NCBI GenBank assembly: GCA_001800135.1
Contig: MGUU01000008.1
Location: forward strand, 1-64,000
Reading direction: 5' to 3'
DNA from: Elusimicrobia bacterium RIFCSPLOWO2_02_FULL_39_32
GTDB taxonomy: Bacteria > Elusimicrobiota > Elusimicrobia > 2-02-FULL-39-32
Length of the DNA: 64,000 nt
In this document: in pieces, positions 63 to 38,421 of the stretch
Layout: each line of letters starts with the position of its first letter
How positions within the stretch are numbered: the first letter of the stretch is position 1
Position numbers and translations under genes: made by a program
Notes under the pieces: model-generated
Databases searched by the model: none
What the model saw: the letters and a program-made list of their open reading frames with translations, nothing else
Told to the model about the DNA's origin: nothing

Positions 63-91
63 TCTTCAACTTTTTGTAACATTTTTGTAAC
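63..91 (-). promoter_or_regulatory. Pho-box-like direct repeats, left edge
   Basis: On the minus strand there are three 7-mers on an 11-bp pitch, GTTACAA, GTTACAA and TTGAAGA, separated by A-rich 4-nt spacers. This is the same layout as the boxes before the porin-pst operon and the giant gene. A TACAAT hexamer lies downstream on the minus strand (38-43). The orientation points to a divergent, phosphate-regulated gene beyond the left edge. PhoB binding is inferred from the pattern. Confidence 0.5.
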
Positions 92-110
92 AAATTTCAT
101 TGAAAAAAGT

Positions 111-2938: not shown

Positions 2939-3463
2939 ATGAGTGAAATCATTTTTATCTTAGGCGGGGCGGAAAGCGGGAAAAGTTCTTTTGGAGTCAG
3001 ATTTTTTAAAAATTTCAAAGGAAAGGTGGGTTTTGTCGCAACCTGTGTCGCAAGCGATCCTGAAATGAAAATAAAAATTAAAAAACATAAAAACGAAAGA
3101 CCTTTAAACTGGATCACTTTTGAATCAGCGCAAACTCCCTTTAAAGTCAATTTTGATCACCAACAAATTGATTCTTTGCTGATTGATAGTTTAACTCTTT
3201 GGGTTTCCAGCTTAATGCTTCAAAATTTTAAAAAAGAGGATGTGCAAAATAAATGTAAAGAATTTCTAAATGAAGTAAAGAAAAAATTTAAACAGATCGT
3301 TATTGTCTCGGATGAAGTTGGGCAAGGCATTGTGCCAAAAAATCAAAATGCTCGGCTATTTAGGCAAATCTTAGGCGCTGTTAATCAGGAGGTAGCTCAA
3401 ACCGCTAATAAAGTATTTATGATTACAGCAGGAATCCCACTGCTTTTAAAAAATGATAGGTAG
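2939..3463 (+). CDS. cobU: Adenosylcobinamide kinase / adenosylcobinamide-phosphate guanylyltransferase
   Basis: Bifunctional CobU/CobP enzyme of 174 aa that phosphorylates adenosylcobinamide and then makes adenosylcobinamide-GDP. The P-loop is GGAESGKS (about residues 9-16). The histidine that carries the GMP intermediate in this family is in KHKNERP (about residue 44). LLIDSLTLWVSSLM is the family's second block. The C-terminus has the expected VSDEVGQGIVP segment. It sits 73 nt after cobC and 24 nt before cobT. Confidence 0.95.
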   Translation: MSEIIFILGGAESGKSSFGVRFFKNFKGKVGFVATCVASDPEMKIKIKKHKNERPLNWITFESAQTPFKVNFDHQQIDSLLIDSLTLWVSSLMLQNFKKEDVQNKCKEFLNEVKKKFKQIVIVSDEVGQGIVPKNQNARLFRQILGAVNQEVAQTANKVFMITAGIPLLLKNDR

Positions 3464-3487: not shown

Positions 3488-4567
3488 ATGAACAATAAAG
3501 AGCTTATTTTAGAAACCATTCAAAAAATCACTCCCTTAAAACAGGAGTGGTTTGAAACTGCAAAAAAACGTTTAGACAATTTAACTAAACCTTTGGGAAG
3601 TTTAGGAAGACTGGAGGATTTGGCTCAAAAAATCTGCGCCATTCAAGAAAATGATCATCCCACTTCTAAAAACAAGGTTATTTTTACTCTAGCCAGTGAT
3701 CATGGAATTACAGAGGAAGGAATCAGCGCTTATCCTCAAGAAGTCACTCCCCAAATGGTTTTTAATTTTATTAACCAGGGAGCGGCCATTAATGTGCTCT
3801 CTAAAACAGTGAACGCTAAAGTAGTTGTTGTGGATATTGGCGTTGCCCAAGAAATGCCAGAACTCCCCGGATTAATTAATAAAAAAATAAGAAAGGGAAC
3901 TTCTAACTTTGCCAAAGAGCCGGCAATGTCTAGGGAAGAAGCATACCAATCTATTGCTACAGGAATAGCTTTAGTAGAAGAGGAAATAAAAAATGGGGTG
4001 GATCTTATTGGAACAGGTGAAATGGGCATAGGAAACACCACTCCTTCCAGCGCCATTACCGCAACCATCACTGACAAAAAAGTAGAACAGGTGACAGGAC
4101 AAGGAACAGGCATTCCTCAGGAATCCCTTAATCATAAAATTGGAGTGATTGAAATCGCGCTTGCCCTGCATAAACCTAATGCGCAGGATCCTATAGATGT
4201 TCTTTCTAAAGTAGGGGGATTTGAAATTGGAGGCATGGCGGGCATTATGCTTGGCGCAGCTAAAAATCGAATTCCAGTTGTGATTGATGGATTTATTTCC
4301 GGCGCAGCAGCTTTAATTGCCCATGGTTTATGTCCTACAGTGTCAGAATATCTCATTCCAGCCCATCGCTCCAGTGAACCCGGACACGACGCAGTTTTAA
4401 AACATTTGGGCTTAATTCCTCTTTTAGATTTAAGAATGAGATTGGGAGAAGGAACAGGAGCAGCTTTAGGCATGTTTCTTGTTGAGGCTTCCTTAAAAAT
4501 AATAAATGAAATGGCTACTTTTGAGCAGGCCCATGTCTCGGAAAAGGTTGAGATTTTAATAAAATAA
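3488..4567 (+). CDS. cobT: Nicotinate-nucleotide:dimethylbenzimidazole phosphoribosyltransferase
   Basis: CobT makes alpha-ribazole phosphate from nicotinate mononucleotide and the lower-ligand base. Conserved blocks include LASDHGITEEGISAYP, GEMGIGNTTPSSAI and, near the C-terminus, RLGEGTGAALG, which carries the family's catalytic glutamate. The ATG at 3488 is preferred over an in-frame upstream start at 3464 because AGGAG (3476-3480) lies 7 nt before it. The mature product is about 359 aa, normal for the family. Together with bluB in this locus it points to a benzimidazole-type lower ligand. Confidence 0.95.
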   Translation: MNNKELILETIQKITPLKQEWFETAKKRLDNLTKPLGSLGRLEDLAQKICAIQENDHPTSKNKVIFTLASDHGITEEGISAYPQEVTPQMVFNFINQGAAINVLSKTVNAKVVVVDIGVAQEMPELPGLINKKIRKGTSNFAKEPAMSREEAYQSIATGIALVEEEIKNGVDLIGTGEMGIGNTTPSSAITATITDKKVEQVTGQGTGIPQESLNHKIGVIEIALALHKPNAQDPIDVLSKVGGFEIGGMAGIMLGAAKNRIPVVIDGFISGAAALIAHGLCPTVSEYLIPAHRSSEPGHDAVLKHLGLIPLLDLRMRLGEGTGAALGMFLVEASLKIINEMATFEQAHVSEKVEILIK

Positions 4568-25989: not shown

Positions 25990-28900
25990 TTATTGCTGCT
26001 GCGCGAAAACGCCTATTTCTTGAATATCTTCTTGCATATTAGTATCTAGGAGCGGTGTAGCATTCAATGAGTTTCCAATCAAGCTTAAGAAACTAATCAC
26101 AGCATTCTTTAAATTCTCATACTGTTCAATATTGTCCAATAACTCTTTTAGATTGCCAACCAAATTTCGTGGGATAAAAAGCCTTAGGGGAACTGAACTT
26201 TTCTGCCTCACTGTTCCCACTATTTCATCCAAAACAGCTGGATCTAAAGAATAATTCCCTTCTCTAAACCTGATTAGTCCTGGATCAGCTTTAACTTCAA
26301 GGCTAATCCCTCTCTTAACAGAAAGACGATTGATGGCCCAAATCTCTGCCTCAGATAAATTGCCGCTTAATATGGTAAGTCTGGAATTAGAAACCCCTTT
26401 CGCGCTCAGATGATAAGCGGAAATAATTTGCTCTGCATATCTGACTTTATTTTTAACTAAAGGATCCAAGAGAGCCACAGTGCTGGAATAATCTTCCATC
26501 TTGGACTTTACAAGAACATTCTGGAACTTGTCATTCTTAAATCCAGCCAAAACAACTTGGCTTAAAGAACGGTTTATTTCTTTAGAAGACATTGTGCTGC
26601 CAGTCTCCTCCTGCAATTTTTGTCCAAGATATTCATAGAACTCTTGCGGATCATCTACGGCGCGAAGAAGATCTAAAGCAGGATTAGATATCCCTTTATC
26701 CCCAAGAACAGTTTGAACGTCTAAAGATTGAGCAGTGTTTTGTAAAATCATAGGGACTATTTTTTGCATGTTTGAAAAACTATACAGTCGCTCCTCTTTT
26801 TCAAGTTTAGATATTGCGCGCGCAAAACCATCTGAAATTGAATAGGTTCGGCTATTTTTAGAACTTGAACTTTTTTTAACTTGGATTCCTTTAGCCTCTT
26901 TAAAAGTTTTTCCAATTTTAGCAGAGCCTAAATAGTTGGCGAACTGATGCGTTGGAAATGAAAGGAGTAGGACAGTTAAATTCTCCAGCCACGGAATATT
27001 CACTCCAAGCGCATGGAAAAAAGTTGTGGCAAGAATAGGCAAAACAAAGATGTTCACTGCGCTCACCAAACCTGCAACCACCACATTTCCAAAAGGAGCT
27101 TTTTCCGGCTGACCTTTAATTCTAAAATAAATAAATTCCGCCAAATGAGCAAGCCAGAAGGATCCCCAAACTAAACCATTGAATGTCTCAAATGAAGGAA
27201 GAGAAACATTCCCTGTGAAAAGCAAGTGCAGCAGATTTTCAATGGCAAGCGCAAACGCAACTGTACCTATAAAAAGAAGATTCTCTCTTAAAGAAGCTTT
27301 TCTCACATATTCTTCTGCTGTATATTGAATACTAAACCAGCGGGGGAGCAGCCCATCTCTTACAAAATTAAGCGTGGCAGTAGCAGTTGTTTTTCCTTCG
27401 AAACTTCTGATGATGGTAAGAATTTTTGCAAGTCCAATCATACGGCTGGAAAAACCGCGTTCATTATCGTACCACGCGTCAAAGGATAGAAATTCTCCCT
27501 CAACTCGAACGCTGTTTAAATCTAAAACACTTGAATGAAGATATCCTTTAACTTCATCAGAATCAATAGGATAAGGTTTGTCATGCAGATGAAAAATTCC
27601 GCTCATTTCCGGTCTTTCATAAGCCTGACGAAATATCTCTTTAACATCTTCGGTTGGAATCCCAACATACTCAGGCTTTAATTTTATTCTTACATTTACA
27701 ACTGAAGCTCCGCCATACCCTTCTCTTAAAGCCACAGCTGTGGTTCTTCCGATGAGTTCAGGCATTGCTTTGCCAATAGTCTGTCCAGCTCCAGAGCTGC
27801 TTAAGAGCATGGTTCTGGCTGCGGCAAACATTCTTTCCATTACATCATGCAAAGGTCCATGATTTAATCTTTGATCATTAGTAAGTTCATGCAAAGTAAT
27901 AGCGCTTACAAAATCAGCCATGTGCTTAACAAAGTAAAGAGCAACAGCCAAAGCGCCAGTTGTACAACTTCCAAGGGTGAATATCTCTTCTGCCCGGATC
28001 AGCTCTTGCAAAGCCTTATCTTGTAAATTCATGGCCCCTGGAATCACAAGCAGGGATTCTCCCTTTCCCGGATTGCCATAAATCATAATGTCACCTTGAA
28101 TTTCAAACCAATCTTTTTCTTTAAAACGATGGTACCCGCTTCCTGCTGCATGCAGATAGATTGGATGAAACCCCTTTGCCCTTAATTCAGCAATTTGTCT
28201 TTCCAAACCGCTAAGACTTGAGCCGTCAAAAACATCAATCCTAAGCCATCCTTTTTCATTGTTTCCGGCCAAAATCACAAAAGTGTTTGTTTTATCATCC
28301 CAGCCAGCATACTCAAATTTTATTCCGGGTCTTCCATAAACAGTATCGTTATTCAAAGCTTTCGCAGTAGCAATGACTTTTTCTTCTGTTGGTTTATAAA
28401 GAGTAACTCCCAAAATATTCACATTAGGATCCCCAATCGCTGCCAGAAGCATATTTTTGCCAGTGCGTCCTCCAACAGCGCTAATGATTAGATCAGCTTT
28501 TCCGCCATTCATCTCTTTAATTCTGGGTTTGGGTTCCAAGGGAACTACAGAAGGCAGGATAGAATAGGTTGCAGTTTGTCTCTTATTTTTGCTATTTCCT
28601 GGATTATCTTCCGCATCTTGCGCTAAATTCTCAATCATCGCTTGAGCAAGTCCTGATTCTCCCATCCAAATAGGAAGCGCCCAAAGCCGTCCTTTCCCTG
28701 TAATTTGAGGTTTACTAATCATGGCTAAAACTGGATTGTCAACCATATCTAAAGATGCTAAAGCTTCTTCTGTAACTTCAATTCTTCCGCCAGAAGCCCT
28801 AACCATTTCTCCAACCAAAGCAATGACCGCATCTCTTTCCAACTCTTCATCAAATTCAATTACAAAATTATGCAGATCACCTTCCAGACGAGTGGGGGTC

Positions 28901-31900
28901 TCAACTCTATAACCATCTGTTCTATAACTTACAGCAAATTCTGAATTGCGCAAAGGCACTGTGCTAAATATCCGAATGCTGGTATCATCTAAACCGCGCA
29001 ACGCTAAAGATTCTTTTAAATAATTTTTAAGAATTAATAAACCATCCATAGATGGCCGCACATGCCGTACCCCATTGAGATGATATGGCTCTCTTAAAGC
29101 CTCATAAGCGCTCATATCCTCTAAATCGTCGCTAACGACCAATATAGAATCAATATTATCTTCATTTAATATCTTGGAATCTTTAAGAATGGATTCACTG
29201 GAAATTTTAATTTTAGCTCCTTGAATATAGAGGTAGGTAAACCCCTGTTTTTCAAAATCGTTCTTATATTTTTCAAATTTTTTTACGTCAAAACCATCCA
29301 GATAGATGCGAATATGTTTAGGCAAACGTTTTTTAATCGCATGATAGAGAAATAAGACATCGCTCACATTCTTAACTCCATAAAAATTAAGAGAGAGTCT
29401 CTCATCTCCCATGAGATCAATGACTAGACTGGATGCAAAATGATCCAAAGGATTTCGCTGATTTGAATCAAATGGAATGTCGGATATTTCAACAGCTACC
29501 CTATTATAAACTCCCTTGGATTCTCTTTTTAATTTGGCTACTGGCGCTGGGATATATCTTTGACCTTCCGGCACCATTTTTCTATCGCTTTTAAATGGTT
29601 TCTTATCACTATCAGAAGAAGAAACAGATTTTTCTTTATCCCTTTCTAAAGACTCCTCTCTTTTATACTTATCCGGATCTTGAACCGCATCTAAAACAGC
29701 AGCTGCCCAAACATTTGCAAAGTCATAACCAAATAGGACTGTTACGGTTCTATGATCCACTATCACACTCCTAGGATCAAAATAGATAGAGCTCTCCCCT
29801 TGCACAAGACTAGGTCTTAAAGAATCGTATGGCTCTAAAACTTTAAGCCGCGAACCAGAAGCCTCTGCCACTTTTTTTAACCTTGAAACAACCTCCTCTT
29901 TAGTTAACTTTCGATCTAAAGTAAATGTGACTGCGGTTAAATGCGCATCGTACTGGCTGGATTGTACCTGAAGATAGCCTTTCCTCATTACTTTGGGCAA
30001 AAGATTTGCCATAGGAGCTGGAAGAATTTTACTGCCAACCACAATATCATGGCTCCTGTCGCGAGTAGGGTCAATAGCAGAATTGGTATGGACCACATGA
30101 CCTAACATATCCAAATCAGCAAATGCTGTTCGAGTTAAATTTACAGCCATCTCTACTGGAGTCATTTCATCAGTTGCCATGACAATATTTTTTGCTCCCA
30201 TTTGCCGATGGTGTTCAGGATCAATTTGACCGCCTGCTGCTTTATGAGCATAAATTACTGTATCTATTCCAAGTTTTTGCCAATTAGGAAGGACTTTGTT
30301 TGGATCTATTTTTTCTCCCTTCTTTATAGTTCCAAGAGCTTTGCTAAAAATGACTTTAATTGGAGAGGAGTGATTGATAATGATTGAATCTCCATCAGGA
30401 GCGATTTCAATATCGCTTTGCGGCATGATTTGGCGCAAATAGGCTACAAAGACATTTGTATCTAAAGGATTTTCCGTTGTTTCTTCCACATAGATATATT
30501 TAAGTATAACATCCTCTTTGCCGCGAAGCTGTTTGATTAATTGTCCTGAAACAACTTCATCTCCTCCATAAATCCCAATAATTTTTGGTTCGCTCTTTTT
30601 CCCTGTTTTTTCAGGATGCTGCGGAATTGATTGCGCGCTAAGGTTAACTTGATCTTGTCTTTGTTGAAGGGTTTTCAAATAAAAGTCATTTTCAAATTCA
30701 TCTTTTTCCCGTCTTTCAGCAGAACTCTGAATCTCTTTCAAAATATTGTCTGCTGCTACCCAGTCTGGAATCCATGCGCGAAGTGTCACTAAACGGCCAT
30801 TCCCCTGCACAGAAATGCTTTTATCTAAAATAAGAGGCTTATCATGTTCTTGCACGCTGATAGAATTAGGGATCCAGCCTCCTTCAGCAAAATAGATGGG
30901 CCAGCCTTGCAAATTAGCAGACCGTAAAATTTCCATCATTCCTTCAACATCCATTTTAATTCCTTCATCTAATATTAGATTTAACTGCGCATATCCTGCG
31001 CCTTCATGCGTATGAGACTCCCATTTTTCACCAAGACCTTTTTTAACTCCATGGAGCCGAAGATTTCTTGCGGCCTGATCTGATTTTTTCTGCAAGATAT
31101 GGCTTTCACCTGGAACCACTGAGATCAGTTCCCATTGTTTTAATTTATGGTTAAGAGCTCCATCTAAATACTCAATAAGGGGGGAAAGAGCAGTTGTGAG
31201 TCCTGTATTGTGATAGCGAACACGAGGTTTTGGGTTTGTATCTACAGGAGGATCCAATTCAGGATTTAGAACATGCGCCATTCTTCCTTCGTGCCAAGGT
31301 CGTTGACGTGGATCATCATCAAAATCATCTGGATCCTGGTCTGTTAAAAAAATAACATCTTTTGGTGATTCGCTTGAATATGAAACATATTTACCAGGTT
31401 TAATTACAATGGTTTTAGTCTGGCCTTGAGAATAGATGGAGATGCTCCATTCACTATTGCTCTGGAATTTGTCAACCTTTAGATCAAACTGAAACCTGCC
31501 TTGATAGGGGTTAGCTTTTAAATGGTCATAAAAGGCCTGGAACTCATTATCATTGTTAATTCCATAAATAGTTGAAATTTCAAAATTAGGATTAAACCCC
31601 TGTCCTCTTTTATCTCCCAATGCTCTGCGTACAATTTGTACAGCTGTATTTTTTATTGACAAGTTATCTCTCTTGCCAAATGCTCCATCCACATCTAACA
31701 CGATCTCTACTGGGACCATGAGAGTAACTTCGGTTGGTTCATCTTTTTCATCTTCTAAGATCGGAGCAAGATGATGCAGCGCTAATTCTTTAGCGTTGGA
31801 TTGCGTAGGCTGCGCCTCAGGAGCATTTTTCTCATCCCGGGCTAGTTTTAGTTTCCGAATCAGGTAAGGCCTAATCCCACCCCAAATAAGAGTAAAATAA

Positions 31901-34900
31901 ATCTCTTCCAAAAGAATTTCTCTGATCGCTCGTTTATCTCTTACTGAACTGGATGGTTCATTCTCAACATGGAGAATATCAGTTAATTCCATTAAAATTT
32001 TTTCCATTTGTCTTTCCCATGGATATGACGATTCTATTAATCCCTGTTTAAAAGAGAATGCTGAATTAATCTCATCATCTGAAGTGTCTGAACTCAAATC
32101 CCTCTTAATGTCCTGATATAGATCTTTTAAACGCCTAATCTCTTCAACTAAGGATGGGTTATCATAGGCCAAATCCTCCATCATGCTTAAGATCATGTTT
32201 TCAGAGGAGTCAGTTTTTATTTTTTCCTGAATTCCAGCCATCTCCTGCAAAACATCATTTCTATTTTTTCCAAGAATTCCTGGTTGTGAAGGAGCGGACT
32301 CTAAGGCAAGGATCGCTTTTGAGTAAATTTCTGGATCTATTGAGTCTAAATTTCTATTGAGCGCAATATCCCTTAATGTCCATATTGCTCTTATTTTTCC
32401 AGATAAAAAAACATTCTCATCCTTAATTGCCCGAGCTGCATCCTCTAAGAGTCTCTTCCAATAGCGCTGAACTTCTTCAAGTTCTTGAGGACTATATTGA
32501 GCACGCGCTGTTTCTGTTGGCCAAATAACATGGCGCAATAGGACAGATTCATATTCAGTTAATTTGAAATGTCTGGTAAGTTTTGAATAAAGAGAGCTCA
32601 ATTGATTTTTGTCAAGATCATGAAAAGTTCCTTTATCACCCACCACACCCTGTATCAGCCCTTTAACCTTTTCATCTTTGATTTGATCCATTGCAACTCT
32701 TAAAGGAGCATAGCGCAAACCAATTAGAATTTGAGAGGCTGGAATGAGACGCTTACTGTTTGCAAAAAGGTTGGAAAGAAGAGACTGGCTAAAAATTTTA
32801 TACCAGGAAACTCCATGACGTTTAAGTTGCTCATCTGCAGAATAGAGTTCATGCAATTTATTCAGAGCTTGCGTTAAAGATTCAATAGAAGAAGATTGAT
32901 TCTCATCTTCCCATGAGTTCCAAAATTCATTGATTGCGCGATTGATCGCTTTTTGTCTGCCAGTCCATTCCAAAGGTTTTATTGAGGTTGGAGCATATTT
33001 CCCACGAAATCTCCATGCCAATTCTCCTCCCATGGAAGCTGGCACAGCAAAGAAAAATTCCCCTTTCCATTGATTTTTCTTAATATTTTTGGAAAATGCT
33101 TCTGCCCGGCGCACAGCATCCTCTAAAGTATGAATATTCATTTTCCAGTTGCCTCCGGAAACTCCTCGAACCGCTTTTCCTTTGGCTAATGCATTTTCAG
33201 CAAAACGATCTGAAATTCGATCCGGATCTCCTGGTATAATGCTTCTGGTTCCAATTAAGCCTCCAATTACTTCCGGCAGTCTTCTTAATAAAGAAAGCCA
33301 TGTGCGTCTTTCCCATCCACCGCTTTGACCATAAACTGAAGAGGGTTTTACACTTCCTCCATAGAGTATCCCAACAGGGATTGGATCAGATTCAGAAAGA
33401 GAAGCTCCTCCTTGTTCCTTAATATGTTCTCTAATCGCTCCAGCAATAATTTGATTCGCCTCATGCATCTGATCTGCGGACATGCTAGTTCCAGAACCAA
33501 TAAAATCAATTGGCTCATAAGCAATTTTAATTTTTGGCAGATCCCTTAAACTGATCCCGTTCAATACCGCTTTGGTTTGCTTATGTAAACCCTGTTTCCA
33601 ATCTCCTTCTGCGCGATTTCTCTCTCCTATAGCAATCACAGGAATTAAACCATTGCGTATCACAGCCAAAGCTTGTTCATTGACTATAGGATCTCCTACT
33701 CCAAAAAATCGTCGGACCTCTGAGTGACCAATCAGAACATAGGTATATCCATCCCTTTTTACTTGTGTTAGATATGGATCAGAAAAATCCTCCAGATCCT
33801 GAAGAGCAAAATGGAGATTTGTGGGTTCAGCCTGCTGTCCGGGATTAAATAGTCTATTTTCCGATATGACATTTCCAACTCTGGTTAAATCCAGGTTTGC
33901 AGGAATTAAAACAGTTGTCATTTCTCTTAAATTTGAATTTTCTGCTAGGGCGGATTGAATAATTGCAGCGGTTTGTATGGAACTATTGCCATGAATTTTT
34001 GTGAAGTCAACTACTGCCATGGGCGGCCCGCGGAGAGCTCCCACAGGAGTTGGGGCACGCGCATGGTAAAATTTAGAAATTATCTCTAACATTTTTTGGA
34101 TTCCGTTCGGATCTTTAGCTACTGTTTCTGAGCCGATGAATATTCCATCTACCTCATGCGCTAATTTTTTAAGATAATCCGAAAGTTGAGAGCGTTCTGG
34201 AGTTTTCCCTCCTAAAAGAATCTTAACCCGATCAGCTTCCTCTTGAAAAAGTTGGCGCAAGTGTGGTTTTGAAGCCTGAGCAATCTCTCCTTTACTTCTT
34301 AACATAGGATATAGCGCATTACCTGCAGCTCTATAGAACCCATGCGCATCCTCTTTAGAAAGAAGAATTGGATTCCCTTCCTTATCAATTACTTGTGGAA
34401 CAACTACTGCGCTCCTTAGAGCCTTAGGCTGATTGACAAAACCCATGAGCTTTTCCCGAAACTCTCTTTTAAAACGATTTTCCAGACTATCTCTTTTCAA
34501 ATTTCCGGTATCATCTCTCTTCAAATCTTCTTCAGATAGGTTCACCACAATGATTGCAGCTAAAGTTTCTCCTTTGCCTTTAACTGCTCTTTGGATTTTT
34601 CTAGCAACTGTGACATTTGATTCGCCTGAAAGGCTAGCTGTTCCTTTTCTAGGATCAGGTATCAAAGCATAAGAAGCTCCTACATTCAAAGCTAAAGCTT
34701 TTGAAGTCTGACCAGTGAAAGCGCCGGAAGATTCAGGAGAAATATCCCGAACTCCCATGAAAAGTCCTGTTTCAGAAAAACGATCCCTAAAAATGGGCTG
34801 AACTTCTTTAGTTGGTTTTCTTTTGGAAAGCTCTTTATTCCAGAGACCCTGAAACTCATCATCTCTTACCTGTCTAAAATCATAGTGATCACTTAATTCT

Positions 34901-37900
34901 GAAGAAATCGCGCTAAAAAAATTCCTGTTATACTTAAGCATATCCATGCTGTCATCATGAATCTTTAGATAAAATTCATGCATAAGAGTAGAAAGATGGC
35001 TAAAATCAGTTAGCGTCACATTGCCATTACTATCCAATCCGTAAGATTGGTCTATCTTATGATCTGGATTGTGGATGCCTCTTGAATACATCTCTTTTTC
35101 CAATTGATAGACAGAATCAATTAGAGCTCTTTTGGCTTTTAAAGAAACTCTTTTACTTTTAAAAGGCCTATTTAAAAGAGTCACTTTTTCCTGTATGATG
35201 ACGAACTCATAAAACACGCTTCTACCATCAATGACCAAATGCACGTTGCGCAGTAAGCTCATTGGGGCAGAAATTCCTCCCAAATATTTTTTTGCTAATG
35301 CAAACCCATGCAGCACTTTATTCAAATCTTTTTTTGGAACTTTAATGACATAGGGAATTTTTGGATCAGAAGGTATAAAAACATCCATAAATTCACCTGA
35401 ACGATCTATGCTAAGAGGGCCTAAATCCATTTCTCGTGCATTAGCATCTGTTATCATGCCCTCAACAATCTTGGTAACTTCATCGCCTGATGATTCATCT
35501 GAAACAAGCGCAAAGTGAAAAGCAAATAGATGAAACGGCAAGAAAACAAGATTTACAAACAAGTGAGAGATAAAATGAGCATCTCTTCTAGCAGCGTTCT
35601 GGTCATATTGCTTTCTTAGTAATAAGGAAATTCCTTGAGCCATGAAACCAAATAGCGCCATGTTCATTCGTATGAACCCTAGTCCCATCCAACGAACCGT
35701 AAACTCTAAAGCGCCTCTCCAACCCTGACTATAGGTATGTTGGTTAAAAAGAAAAGTTCTGTAATCCTGCTCAATTGATTCAAATTCCTGAACAGGGGCA
35801 ACTAAAAGAGCTGCATAGGAGAGAACTATTGTTTTGGATAGGATTATAGAGAAACTATTTTTAGATGAGGACAATCGTTGAAACCATTCATAAGCAATTA
35901 AATCTTTAGAAGCTAATCCCAAACTACTTGCTGTTGTAAGAGCTATTCCACCTCTTTTTACAAAGCTAGAAGCGCTCTTTGTTGTAGAGATGAGCGCGCT
36001 ATCTCCTTGAGGGTCAATGCTCTTTCTTGCTGATCTACTTGTTTGTTCTACTCCTCGGAAAATACCTTTTCTTGCAGAAGTAGTCACTTTCTCAACTGTG
36101 TGACTAATATTTCTAGCAGAGACCTTTACTTTATCCATTGAGTGAATAAACCTCTTTGCATTGGATCGCAAATGAGGCACAAATCCAACAGGAGAAGAAT
36201 CCAGTCGTGCTACAGTGAGGATTTTTTTCCTATCTTTAGATAAATTAAGATCATAAGCAACTTTTGCTTCCTCTTTTTTTAAAATAACGCGCCTTAAATA
36301 ATCGCTTAATAACTGAACTTCTATTTTAAATTTGATGCCCAGTGATCCAGTTAAAGAATAAAAAACAGTTTGCGCATTGACTGGGTCAAATGCAGCAATG
36401 AGACTTGCCGCAAATAGCCGAACTCGATCTGGCCACATTAATTGAGAAACAAAAAGTTTTTCTCCATCAAAAAGTTTTTCTAAAGGCGTTTTTTCTTGGG
36501 TAAAAACAGATAAATATTCTGTGCCCTTTTCAGATTCAATTCTAGTTATCTTTGGAGCAAGGGTGATAACTGCTGCATTTGATTTTTTAAGAAGCTCTTC
36601 CATCCCTTGGGAATGGAATCCGCCGGTAATGAAAACCGACACTTTCGCATTTTCTTTGGAAATGGCTTGAAGTAAGTTTCTAGACATCGCTTCATCTCTA
36701 AGATGAGCGTATTCATAAAAGGAGGCGATCTTCTCAAGTTGCGGGAAAAATCGAGTTGACTCTTGAGGATCAAATTCTAAATGGCTATTTGATAATTCCT
36801 GAATCTTTTCCTTTGTTGGATATCTCAGACCCTGGGAAGGAGCATGATTTTGAAGGGAAAAATTTTTGTATTCTTTCCATTCTTCAGGCCCCAACTCGTA
36901 ATCAAGTAATTTTTTCGTAAGATAGAGCTGATAAGATTGAGCAACTAAATTTTTTTCTTGCTCACTCTGGCAAAGGGATTCATAAGCTAATCTTTCCATT
37001 TTCTTTAATTCAGCAATTAACTTATCAGCGGAAATAGTCTCTGCTGCCAGAATATAACGGATATAAGACTCCATTGCAGGATATGCCTTGCAATCAAGTC
37101 CTGAATTCTTACAGAGCTGGATGAGATAATTGTAAAAAGCAGCATGCTGTATATGACCTAAGCGATAAGCCACGCTGCTTTTAAGGAGACGATTCATTTG
37201 GGGAGATGTGAGTTTCTGAACTAAAATCTGAATCATGGCTTTGCGCTCTTTTTCTACTTGAGCAAAATCCAGTTTTTCTTCCATCATAAGAGCTTTTCTA
37301 AATGCGCTGATTTCTTGAGAAACTTTCTCTTGCTCTTCTGTAAGCGCTTTCAGATATTCTCCAAGCCGAATCTCATGCTTGCGGTAAGATTCAACCTTTT
37401 GATCTAAGGCTAAAAGTTTTGCGTTATAAATCTTTTCTTTTATTTGAGAAATTTGTGATATTTGTTGTTCAATATCCCTCTTCAAATTTTCAGCTTGTGA
37501 AACAGATTCTTTATAAGCCTGAACGTGGCTATGGTAAAGTTTTGAATCATCAATTCCAATAAATTTTGGGATAGCGGTTGAACTTGTGAGCGCGGCGTGA
37601 ATAGCTCCGGAAATTTTATTTTCTTTAAGCAAATAATCAGCAACTTTGCGCACTGATTCTTGATTTTTATAATTACGGAAATTGGAAAGCTGAATGGGTT
37701 CAAAAGCGCCTTCTAAACCTACAAAACTAATTTTTTCTTGGATGATCAGAGCTTGCAGAGAATTGGCTATATTTTTTTGAGCTTCCTCATTCTGATGCGC
37801 ATCCTGAATATGTAATATAAGCGGGTCGCTCGCTTTCCATTTAGGCGGGAAATAGGCGCGCTTAAAATTAGAGAATTGAAGGGGCAGAACCACTGGCAAT

Positions 37901-38244
37901 TCCGGCAGTTTTAGAGAAGAAAGCGGTTGAGATTTCAAACTGTTAAAGGTTTCACTATTGAATGAACCTTTTTCAAATGGCAGGGATAAAGAAGGAGCAT
38001 GCGGCAGTTTGGCTAATTGCAGGGGAAGAGACCCACGCTCTTGATCTCTATCCTGATCCTCCTCAACTAATTTTTGCTCTTGGCTCTTTTCTTTAAGTTG
38101 AAGAGCCGCTTCTCTTCTTTCTTGCCAAATCATTGCCTCTGCAAACGGGGGAACAATACTTGAATAAATAAAAGATAACGAAAATAAAGAAGCAAATATC
38201 TTTTTGACGCAACTAAATCTTTTTTTCTTTAACTGGAATTCCAT
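25990..38244 (-). CDS. Giant exported multidomain protein with tandem triosephosphate isomerase and GAPDH-like domains
   Basis: One open frame of 4,084 residues. Order: signal peptide (about 1-37, ending AEA); TIKI/ChaN-like domain (about 130-580, HIQDAHQN near 148 and GGFHSQG near H544); SAR-repeat helices (about 690-740); membrane segments near 795-910; pseudokinase-like domain (K968, H1058, D1061, D1080). Then TIM-1 (about 1155-1400, strands 3-8 only, catalytic His and Glu lost), TIM-2 (about 1409-1690, K1416, H1507 in GHSEVRR, E1577 in YEP, YGGS at 1628) and TIM-3 (from GNWKMN, K1701, strands 1-2 only). A helical region (about 1760-2170) precedes GAPDH-1 to -4 (about 2176-2500, 2552-2855, 2912-3210, 3245-3610). 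Only GAPDH-4 keeps SCTT (C3427) and the partner H3452. About four membrane segments (3653-3770) and an unrecognised tail end it. Function unknown; a Pho-type promoter precedes it. Confidence 0.85.
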   Translation of the reverse strand: MEFQLKKKRFSCVKKIFASLFSLSFIYSSIVPPFAEAMIWQERREAALQLKEKSQEQKLVEEDQDRDQERGSLPLQLAKLPHAPSLSLPFEKGSFNSETFNSLKSQPLSSLKLPELPVVLPLQFSNFKRAYFPPKWKASDPLILHIQDAHQNEEAQKNIANSLQALIIQEKISFVGLEGAFEPIQLSNFRNYKNQESVRKVADYLLKENKISGAIHAALTSSTAIPKFIGIDDSKLYHSHVQAYKESVSQAENLKRDIEQQISQISQIKEKIYNAKLLALDQKVESYRKHEIRLGEYLKALTEEQEKVSQEISAFRKALMMEEKLDFAQVEKERKAMIQILVQKLTSPQMNRLLKSSVAYRLGHIQHAAFYNYLIQLCKNSGLDCKAYPAMESYIRYILAAETISADKLIAELKKMERLAYESLCQSEQEKNLVAQSYQLYLTKKLLDYELGPEEWKEYKNFSLQNHAPSQGLRYPTKEKIQELSNSHLEFDPQESTRFFPQLEKIASFYEYAHLRDEAMSRNLLQAISKENAKVSVFITGGFHSQGMEELLKKSNAAVITLAPKITRIESEKGTEYLSVFTQEKTPLEKLFDGEKLFVSQLMWPDRVRLFAASLIAAFDPVNAQTVFYSLTGSLGIKFKIEVQLLSDYLRRVILKKEEAKVAYDLNLSKDRKKILTVARLDSSPVGFVPHLRSNAKRFIHSMDKVKVSARNISHTVEKVTTSARKGIFRGVEQTSRSARKSIDPQGDSALISTTKSASSFVKRGGIALTTASSLGLASKDLIAYEWFQRLSSSKNSFSIILSKTIVLSYAALLVAPVQEFESIEQDYRTFLFNQHTYSQGWRGALEFTVRWMGLGFIRMNMALFGFMAQGISLLLRKQYDQNAARRDAHFISHLFVNLVFLPFHLFAFHFALVSDESSGDEVTKIVEGMITDANAREMDLGPLSIDRSGEFMDVFIPSDPKIPYVIKVPKKDLNKVLHGFALAKKYLGGISAPMSLLRNVHLVIDGRSVFYEFVIIQEKVTLLNRPFKSKRVSLKAKRALIDSVYQLEKEMYSRGIHNPDHKIDQSYGLDSNGNVTLTDFSHLSTLMHEFYLKIHDDSMDMLKYNRNFFSAISSELSDHYDFRQVRDDEFQGLWNKELSKRKPTKEVQPIFRDRFSETGLFMGVRDISPESSGAFTGQTSKALALNVGASYALIPDPRKGTASLSGESNVTVARKIQRAVKGKGETLAAIIVVNLSEEDLKRDDTGNLKRDSLENRFKREFREKLMGFVNQPKALRSAVVVPQVIDKEGNPILLSKEDAHGFYRAAGNALYPMLRSKGEIAQASKPHLRQLFQEEADRVKILLGGKTPERSQLSDYLKKLAHEVDGIFIGSETVAKDPNGIQKMLEIISKFYHARAPTPVGALRGPPMAVVDFTKIHGNSSIQTAAIIQSALAENSNLREMTTVLIPANLDLTRVGNVISENRLFNPGQQAEPTNLHFALQDLEDFSDPYLTQVKRDGYTYVLIGHSEVRRFFGVGDPIVNEQALAVIRNGLIPVIAIGERNRAEGDWKQGLHKQTKAVLNGISLRDLPKIKIAYEPIDFIGSGTSMSADQMHEANQIIAGAIREHIKEQGGASLSESDPIPVGILYGGSVKPSSVYGQSGGWERRTWLSLLRRLPEVIGGLIGTRSIIPGDPDRISDRFAENALAKGKAVRGVSGGNWKMNIHTLEDAVRRAEAFSKNIKKNQWKGEFFFAVPASMGGELAWRFRGKYAPTSIKPLEWTGRQKAINRAINEFWNSWEDENQSSSIESLTQALNKLHELYSADEQLKRHGVSWYKIFSQSLLSNLFANSKRLIPASQILIGLRYAPLRVAMDQIKDEKVKGLIQGVVGDKGTFHDLDKNQLSSLYSKLTRHFKLTEYESVLLRHVIWPTETARAQYSPQELEEVQRYWKRLLEDAARAIKDENVFLSGKIRAIWTLRDIALNRNLDSIDPEIYSKAILALESAPSQPGILGKNRNDVLQEMAGIQEKIKTDSSENMILSMMEDLAYDNPSLVEEIRRLKDLYQDIKRDLSSDTSDDEINSAFSFKQGLIESSYPWERQMEKILMELTDILHVENEPSSSVRDKRAIREILLEEIYFTLIWGGIRPYLIRKLKLARDEKNAPEAQPTQSNAKELALHHLAPILEDEKDEPTEVTLMVPVEIVLDVDGAFGKRDNLSIKNTAVQIVRRALGDKRGQGFNPNFEISTIYGINNDNEFQAFYDHLKANPYQGRFQFDLKVDKFQSNSEWSISIYSQGQTKTIVIKPGKYVSYSSESPKDVIFLTDQDPDDFDDDPRQRPWHEGRMAHVLNPELDPPVDTNPKPRVRYHNTGLTTALSPLIEYLDGALNHKLKQWELISVVPGESHILQKKSDQAARNLRLHGVKKGLGEKWESHTHEGAGYAQLNLILDEGIKMDVEGMMEILRSANLQGWPIYFAEGGWIPNSISVQEHDKPLILDKSISVQGNGRLVTLRAWIPDWVAADNILKEIQSSAERREKDEFENDFYLKTLQQRQDQVNLSAQSIPQHPEKTGKKSEPKIIGIYGGDEVVSGQLIKQLRGKEDVILKYIYVEETTENPLDTNVFVAYLRQIMPQSDIEIAPDGDSIIINHSSPIKVIFSKALGTIKKGEKIDPNKVLPNWQKLGIDTVIYAHKAAGGQIDPEHHRQMGAKNIVMATDEMTPVEMAVNLTRTAFADLDMLGHVVHTNSAIDPTRDRSHDIVVGSKILPAPMANLLPKVMRKGYLQVQSSQYDAHLTAVTFTLDRKLTKEEVVSRLKKVAEASGSRLKVLEPYDSLRPSLVQGESSIYFDPRSVIVDHRTVTVLFGYDFANVWAAAVLDAVQDPDKYKREESLERDKEKSVSSSDSDKKPFKSDRKMVPEGQRYIPAPVAKLKRESKGVYNRVAVEISDIPFDSNQRNPLDHFASSLVIDLMGDERLSLNFYGVKNVSDVLFLYHAIKKRLPKHIRIYLDGFDVKKFEKYKNDFEKQGFTYLYIQGAKIKISSESILKDSKILNEDNIDSILVVSDDLEDMSAYEALREPYHLNGVRHVRPSMDGLLILKNYLKESLALRGLDDTSIRIFSTVPLRNSEFAVSYRTDGYRVETPTRLEGDLHNFVIEFDEELERDAVIALVGEMVRASGGRIEVTEEALASLDMVDNPVLAMISKPQITGKGRLWALPIWMGESGLAQAMIENLAQDAEDNPGNSKNKRQTATYSILPSVVPLEPKPRIKEMNGGKADLIISAVGGRTGKNMLLAAIGDPNVNILGVTLYKPTEEKVIATAKALNNDTVYGRPGIKFEYAGWDDKTNTFVILAGNNEKGWLRIDVFDGSSLSGLERQIAELRAKGFHPIYLHAAGSGYHRFKEKDWFEIQGDIMIYGNPGKGESLLVIPGAMNLQDKALQELIRAEEIFTLGSCTTGALAVALYFVKHMADFVSAITLHELTNDQRLNHGPLHDVMERMFAAARTMLLSSSGAGQTIGKAMPELIGRTTAVALREGYGGASVVNVRIKLKPEYVGIPTEDVKEIFRQAYERPEMSGIFHLHDKPYPIDSDEVKGYLHSSVLDLNSVRVEGEFLSFDAWYDNERGFSSRMIGLAKILTIIRSFEGKTTATATLNFVRDGLLPRWFSIQYTAEEYVRKASLRENLLFIGTVAFALAIENLLHLLFTGNVSLPSFETFNGLVWGSFWLAHLAEFIYFRIKGQPEKAPFGNVVVAGLVSAVNIFVLPILATTFFHALGVNIPWLENLTVLLLSFPTHQFANYLGSAKIGKTFKEAKGIQVKKSSSSKNSRTYSISDGFARAISKLEKEERLYSFSNMQKIVPMILQNTAQSLDVQTVLGDKGISNPALDLLRAVDDPQEFYEYLGQKLQEETGSTMSSKEINRSLSQVVLAGFKNDKFQNVLVKSKMEDYSSTVALLDPLVKNKVRYAEQIISAYHLSAKGVSNSRLTILSGNLSEAEIWAINRLSVKRGISLEVKADPGLIRFREGNYSLDPAVLDEIVGTVRQKSSVPLRLFIPRNLVGNLKELLDNIEQYENLKNAVISFLSLIGNSLNATPLLDTNMQEDIQEIGVFAQQQ

Positions 38245-38355: not shown

Positions 38356-38421
38356 ATTTTATTAAAAACAGCCATAACTTTTCTTAAACTTTTTGTAAAT
38401 TTTTTGTGACAAAAATGAAAC
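38356..38421 (-). promoter_or_regulatory. Pho-type promoter of the giant gene
   Basis: On the minus strand: GTTTCAT, GTCACAA, TTTACAA on an 11-bp pitch (38393-38421), with TTTAAGA continuing the series (38382-38388). TTTAATAAAAT (38356-38366) follows exactly 26 bp after the third repeat. The porin-pst promoter has the same order and the same 26-bp distance. A second candidate -10 (TATACT) lies nearer the gene. Regulation by PhoB is inferred. Confidence 0.65.

Follow-up and report, generated by a model that had tools for sequence, protein, structure and literature searches.

The window analysed here, 64,000 nucleotides of DNA from a groundwater bacterium of the phylum Elusimicrobiota, raises the question of what a giant protein containing pieces of glycolytic enzymes does beside a phosphate-uptake operon, and whether these pieces still act as enzymes. 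The original prediction described one uninterrupted 12.3-kb frame, and such a frame was indeed found:

25990..38244, minus strand: ORF of the giant protein, 4,084 aa, an open frame without a stop; whole-ORF dN/dS 0.19 against its relative L001

The relative L001 (in the MAG NC_groundwater_250, Elusimicrobia, a second species) is full-length, with a 4,022-aa frame confirmed by tblastn, and in an end-to-end alignment 3,542 of 4,020 residues (88%) were identical to those of the giant. Since the homology runs from end to end and the dN/dS is 0.19, the gene is real and under purifying selection, and a frame break or assembly artefact, which the prediction had named as one possible refutation, is excluded. 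The phosphate-uptake operon is there as described, as pst-phoU/phoBR genes adjoin the giant gene; in L001, genes matching those of the pst operon in size lie on the same side. The neighbourhood is common only to the two species of the genus that have the gene. Elsewhere in the window, many plus-strand genes between positions 132 and 24961 resemble by sequence an anaerobic cobalamin biosynthesis cluster, which is ordinary.

The larger finding, beyond the view of the original prediction, is that this protein is one of a set of giants. In this genome, 24 giant ORFs of 1,312-13,470 aa were found, which sum to 132,851 aa and occupy 15.8% of the genome. The set was made up of about 21 frames obtained from a search with the head domain plus neighbours of the same layout, and 3 of the 24 share only the ends or the layout. 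Nine giants follow one another head to tail in a 176-kb stretch of contig C16. Most giants combine a TIKI/ChaN-like head with a short tail at the C-terminus and have a promoter element made of 11-bp direct repeats, and most carry 3-36 hydrophobic segments. The head search matched 68 of 341 Elusimicrobiota genomes, usually with several matches per genome and often within very long frames. In the giant of the window, the ends and hydrophobic segments are the following:

38131..38244, minus strand: signal-peptide-like N-terminus, residues 1-38, with the ..APFAEA pattern common to the giants, recognised by eye
36445..37887, minus strand: TIKI/ChaN-like head, residues 120-600, with putative metal ligands D148, H150, E178 and G541-G-F-H544
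35503..35847, minus strand: hydrophobic segments, residues 800-818 and 896-914
26956..27279, minus strand: hydrophobic segments near the C-terminus, residues 3656-3763, with homologues in giant C24
25993..26703, minus strand: C-terminal region, residues 3848-4084, related to giant C25_133994 and ending in ..GVFAQQQ, the common tail of the giants

The signal peptide and the membrane segments of the original prediction thus have counterparts in a signal-like N-terminal segment and several hydrophobic segments. The predicted TIKI/ChaN-like domain was borne out by conserved residues (D148 and the columns H150, E178 and GGxH544, the latter conserved in 20-21 of 23 giant heads), but its match to ChaN/TIKI (PF04187) was weak, with an E value of 8e-5 and 23.1 bits against a Pfam cut-off of 27.7. 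PF04187 matches one region of another giant at E 2e-8, and the head of the giant matches most of its paralogues at E 1e-42 or better. The kinase-like domain was not recovered, as neither Pfam nor PDB profile searches gave anything usable at residues 930-1150. At the other end, the last two residues are Q, N or S followed by A, Q or S in 23 of 24 giants (QQ in this one), versus 1 of 44 other ORFs of the window. Giant C16_183899 is without the tail, and among the giants of other genomes 13 finish with small residues, mainly Ala. A copy of the tmRNA tag was considered as the origin of the tail and rejected, as the tag (L151), GQNKQANEQLALAA, is only loosely similar.

The TIM and GAPDH copies in the middle of the protein were scored with profiles made from normal Elusimicrobiota enzymes against shuffled controls (z). 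The Pfam match to TIM (PF00121), with E 9e-34 and 117.5 bits, was above the cut-off of 20.1, and the copies are arranged as follows:

34045..34773, minus strand: TIM copy 1, partial, residues 1158-1400, of which 1158-1256 are matched; z 16.5
33175..34032, minus strand: TIM copy 2 (TIM2), nearly complete, residues 1405-1690; z 59
33040..33171, minus strand: TIM copy 3, a weak N-terminal fragment with GGNWKMN at residues 1697-1703; z 1.6, at the level of the controls

The predicted TIM domains therefore hold for one nearly complete and one partial copy, but the third is only a short fragment. TIM2 keeps the NWK-type Lys, the H95-type His (GHSE, 1504-1512), the E165-type Glu (AYEP, 1574-1581) and GGS (1627-1632), and has lost the Asn of NWK (FTK, residues 1412-1419). 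The intact GGNWKMN of copy 3 comes directly after it, an order that would suit a circular permutation. Overall, TIM2 retains 33 of 58 residues that are invariant in normal Elusimicrobiota TIM, and its dN/dS against L001 was 0.12.

Four GAPDH-like domains had been predicted. The GAPDH C-domain (PF02800) was matched at E 5e-16, above the Pfam cut-off, and the four stretches scored very differently:

30640..31737, minus strand: candidate degenerate GAPDH 1, residues 2170-2535, by eye, not above shuffled controls
29635..30627, minus strand: degenerate GAPDH 2, residues 2540-2870; z 5.3, significant, without the catalytic Cys
28555..29517, minus strand: candidate degenerate GAPDH 3, residues 2910-3230, by eye, not above controls; dN/dS 0.10
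27409..28527, minus strand: GAPDH 4 (GAPDH4), residues 3240-3612; z 56, with an altered dinucleotide motif

Hence the fourth domain stands firmly and the second significantly, but the first and third stay at control level. By eye the latter two look GAPDH-like (for instance NTGLTTALSPL versus SCTTNCLAPL in the enzyme), PDB profile searches gave nothing usable for either, and we do not claim GAPDH identity for them; a C-terminal motif common to the GAPDH candidates scores slightly above shuffles. GAPDH4 keeps Cys3427 (GSCTTG), TLHELTND (3450-3459) and WYDNE (WYDNERG, 3591-3597) together with residues of the phosphate site (ND after the catalytic His, SSSGAG and the Arg of LRE). Its NAD site is altered, with SAVGGRTGK in place of NGFGRIGR and the NAD-binding ND pair absent; it retains 54 of 128 residues invariant in normal Elusimicrobiota GAPDH, and against the NCBIfam equivalog for GAPDH type I it scored 96.5 bits, not reaching the cut-off of 367. 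The dN/dS of GAPDH4 was 0.060-0.073, and the canonical GAPDH compared between these two species gave 0.068; most other parts of the giant gave 0.13-0.31. Among the matches listed for 336 genomes, only the two species of this genus have TIM and GAPDH within a giant. Structure predictions of the TIM region (721 aa, pLDDT 37) and of candidate GAPDH 3 (352 aa, pLDDT 35), each from a two-sequence alignment, were uninformative because only one close homologue exists.

Cysteine makes up 0.12% of the giants versus 1.04% of the other proteins of the window, that is, it is 8.5-fold less frequent. Such depletion is typical of exported proteins, and since exported window proteins that are not giants are also cysteine-poor, it marks export and not the giant family. 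In both the giant and L001, the catalytic Cys of GAPDH is the single Cys beyond the head (after residue 800). Likewise, the sole Cys beyond the head of giant C16_232568 is the catalytic one of isocitrate lyase (KKCGHM), and among the three beyond the head of the PEP synthase giant, one is the catalytic Cys (LCGQA). The chance of this agreement for the three enzymes jointly is about 2e-11, for a test chosen after the data had been seen. Giant C11 retains a radical-SAM-like CxxxCxxC. We read the depletion, together with the retained catalytic Cys, to mean that the proteins are exported and that their working active sites have been selectively preserved; as almost all other cysteines have been removed, the enzymes may work outside the cell interior.

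Further enzymes of central metabolism were recognised in the other giants. According to Pfam and PDB alignments, giant C16_206901 contains AceK, a piece of malate synthase and a circularly permuted phosphoglycerate mutase (iPGM). AceK is a kinase that switches off isocitrate dehydrogenase and is otherwise proteobacterial. In the phylum it was found above the cut-off only in giants of this genus (here at C16:224859-225767); of 14 control genomes, E. coli alone had it. In the iPGM (C16:211600-213300, L087), chain positions 222-510 precede 5-213 with a junction of 10 residues, which is a circular permutation and looks like the outcome of a duplication followed by complementary loss. The established active-site residue numbers of both enzymes were placed on the alignments: iPGM keeps its metal ligands and has Thr for Ser62, and AceK has lost an active-site Asp. 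Giant C16_232568 contains glutamate dehydrogenase, FBPase and malate synthase besides its isocitrate lyase, an enzyme also found within giant-sized frames of the related genera G008 and G009, and giant C16_251802 contains PEP synthase and HEAT repeats. Other giants have SecA, ABC1, radical SAM, PP2C, patatin, UDPGP and other domains; giants on contigs C5, C11, C18, C25 and C10 include a match to the SecA motor domain (E 3e-61) and one radical-SAM module. PGK, enolase and aldolase were not found in the giants at E<1e-4, and there is no complete pathway. The giants can be delimited as a family whose members have their ends and their promoter in common, with recognisable central-metabolism enzymes in their middles.

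For the family as a whole, we give an even chance to the reading that the giants are exported proteins whose enzyme modules have been kept catalytically competent. The giant would be an exported or envelope-held protein, one of about 24 paralogues in which the TIKI/ChaN-like head and the short tail stay constant and the middle varies, most of them driven by the common promoter element. The middle would grow as housekeeping enzymes are captured, duplicated in tandem, permuted and in part left to decay, at least one copy per captured enzyme tending to stay competent. Here the competent copies would be TIM2, to which copy 3 may contribute the NWK strand, and GAPDH4 with Cys3427, and the degenerate ones would serve as spacers or scaffold. 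In this way, triose-phosphate, glyoxylate-shunt and gluconeogenic chemistry would be placed outside the producing cytoplasm. The frame, the paralogy, the tail, the promoter element, the cysteine pattern, the catalytic residues and the purifying selection are direct findings; export, catalysis and its compartment are inferred. Against competence speak the invariant residues that TIM2 and GAPDH4 have lost, the altered NAD motif and ND pair of GAPDH4, the Ser62 to Thr exchange of iPGM and the Asp lost from AceK. Against catalysis outside the cytoplasm speaks the need of several modules for ATP, NAD, UTP or acetyl-CoA, which are scarce there. Further points against the reading are the incomplete pathway and the many hydrophobic segments, which leave the topology of the giants ambiguous. 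The cysteine pattern, the catalytic residues and a GAPDH dN/dS equal to that of a normal enzyme lend indirect support to one option of the original prediction, that a TIM-GAPDH pair still works outside the cytoplasm.

Its other option was a scaffold, ligand or phosphate-sensing role, which fits the degenerate extra copies; the link to phosphate uptake is weak (see below). In a related reading, TIM and GAPDH folds would be exapted, catalytically dead pseudoenzymes that help to build an envelope protein or let it bind (sense) phosphometabolites. The loss of about half of the family-invariant residues, the altered NAD motif, the degenerate repeats and fragments and the large inserts in the isocitrate lyase and PEP synthase modules would all be expected, and GAPDH4 has kept its phosphate-site residues. 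Nevertheless, we regard this as possible but rather unlikely, as a catalytic Cys is kept in an otherwise Cys-free stretch, with parallels in isocitrate lyase and PEP synthase, and GAPDH4 evolves with the dN/dS of a working enzyme. A pure scaffold had been our first favourite and was lowered because of the cysteine result.

Alternatively, the giants could form a membrane-anchored metabolon facing the producer's cytoplasm, with the N-terminal and internal hydrophobic segments inserted in the membrane and the modules inside, next to their cofactors. The number of hydrophobic segments in most giants and the cytoplasmic cofactors would agree with this, as would the fact that iPGM and isocitrate lyase occur in this genome only inside giants, without a stand-alone copy. 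The cysteine depletion, a mark of export, and the separate normal TIM, GAPDH and PPDK-type genes elsewhere in the genome make it an unlikely arrangement. The gene set (AceK plus isocitrate lyase, malate synthase and gluconeogenic enzymes), together with the cofactor needs, leads to another reading, which we find decidedly unlikely: the giants would be a regulon of secreted metabolic-takeover proteins, delivered into another bacterium or acting on its contents. With AceK, isocitrate lyase, malate synthase, PEP synthase, phosphoglycerate mutase, GAPDH, TIM and FBPase combined, the victim's carbon would be pushed through the glyoxylate shunt to sugar phosphates usable by the producer.

The position of the gene, which follows phoU on the same strand at a distance of 331 bp with no minus-strand terminator-like site found in the gap, suggested that the giant might be a phosphate-starvation protein of the Pho regulon that senses or scavenges phosphate. 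Upstream of it lies the following element:

38382..38412, minus strand: promoter element TTGTCACAAAAAATTTACAAAAAGTTTAAGA, with 11-bp direct repeats (TTGTNACAAAAATNTTACAAAAAGTTNAAGA), 138 bp upstream of the ATG, common to 15 other giants

The repeats are of the kind that PhoB/OmpR-type regulators bind, a further point for a Pho protein. The element of this giant scores 27/28, in a block nearly identical in L001. Of the 24 giants, 16 have a site scoring 22/28 or better in the roughly 420 bp before the gene; among 44 other window genes the highest score was 19/28, and shuffles reached 20. The element also precedes heads in four further genomes of the family (G004, G005, G008 and G010). A few sites precede smaller genes or unexplored stretches. 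Two sites before smaller genes are at C16:285589 (minus strand, L098) and C18:85110; one of these genes codes for a protein of 279 aa whose N-terminus is signal-like, so that the regulon may include more than the giants. A perfect 28/28 copy lies at window positions 63-93 on the minus strand and points off the contig edge, beyond which there may be another giant, possibly the cause of the assembly break. Neither the pst nor the phoB promoter has the element. Its presence at giants elsewhere in the genome and its absence at pst and phoB make co-regulation of the giants likely and a simple link to phosphate unlikely. As giants far from pst also carry the element, and no Pho-box above chance was found, a Pho-regulon protein is very improbable, and the link of the giant to phosphate uptake is weak. 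Finally, an assembly artefact, a pseudogene or a chance open frame, which could be suspected in so long a frame from metagenome-assembled genomes, deserves practically no credence, given the same gene with the same neighbours and a dN/dS of 0.19 in an independent genome and no stop.

Returning to exported giants with competent modules, we compared them with known systems. The giants resemble MARTX-type proteins, which are giant secreted proteins with constant ends and several variable enzyme modules; however, their modules are metabolic enzymes, and Pfam scans of the giants gave no RTX-type or MARTX match. A TIKI-fold effector of the MARTX group has been described (PMC6254334). The head shares with the TIKI/ChaN/EreA superfamily a weak Pfam match and conserved His, Glu and GGxH positions common to giant heads, but it stays below the curated cut-off and is here the constant head of the giants. 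TPI-GAPDH fusions with predicted mitochondrial targeting are known in stramenopiles, cercozoans and an apusozoan (PMC3527533). As here, both enzymes share one chain with a targeting sequence; those are simple two-enzyme fusions, whereas the bacterial giant, 4,084 aa long and with a TIKI head, has repeated and partly decayed modules. In the related phyla, the Omnitrophota giant ORFs, for example in Velamenicoccus (PMC10066038), and the giant protein of Ca. Menyafoubacter (PMC12057145) are secreted or membrane-bound like the present giants, some with many hydrophobic segments, and have been proposed to serve in attachment or predation. They contain adhesin, carbohydrate-binding or carbohydrate-degrading domains, and central-metabolism enzyme modules are not described in the sections of these reports drawn on here. 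Huge proteins are enriched in Elusimicrobiota, where a survey left those of the phylum without COG assignment (PMC11573180); its very long ORFs are like the present giants, but the survey gives only counts, in contrast to the family with common head, tail, promoter and enzyme content found here.

Huge Elusimicrobiota proteins are thus already known; the enzyme content and organisation of the present ones were not found in the literature searched, nor was any description of this family or of metabolic modules in such giants. The huge proteins of Elusimicrobiota and related phyla have been a long-standing blank, as they can take up a large share of the genome and are without an assigned function. 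The cysteine pattern provides a simple, testable sign that enzyme sites remain in use in exported proteins. We know of no clear bacterial precedent for core carbon chemistry outside the producing cytoplasm, which is where, if this reading is true, these bacteria would run it.
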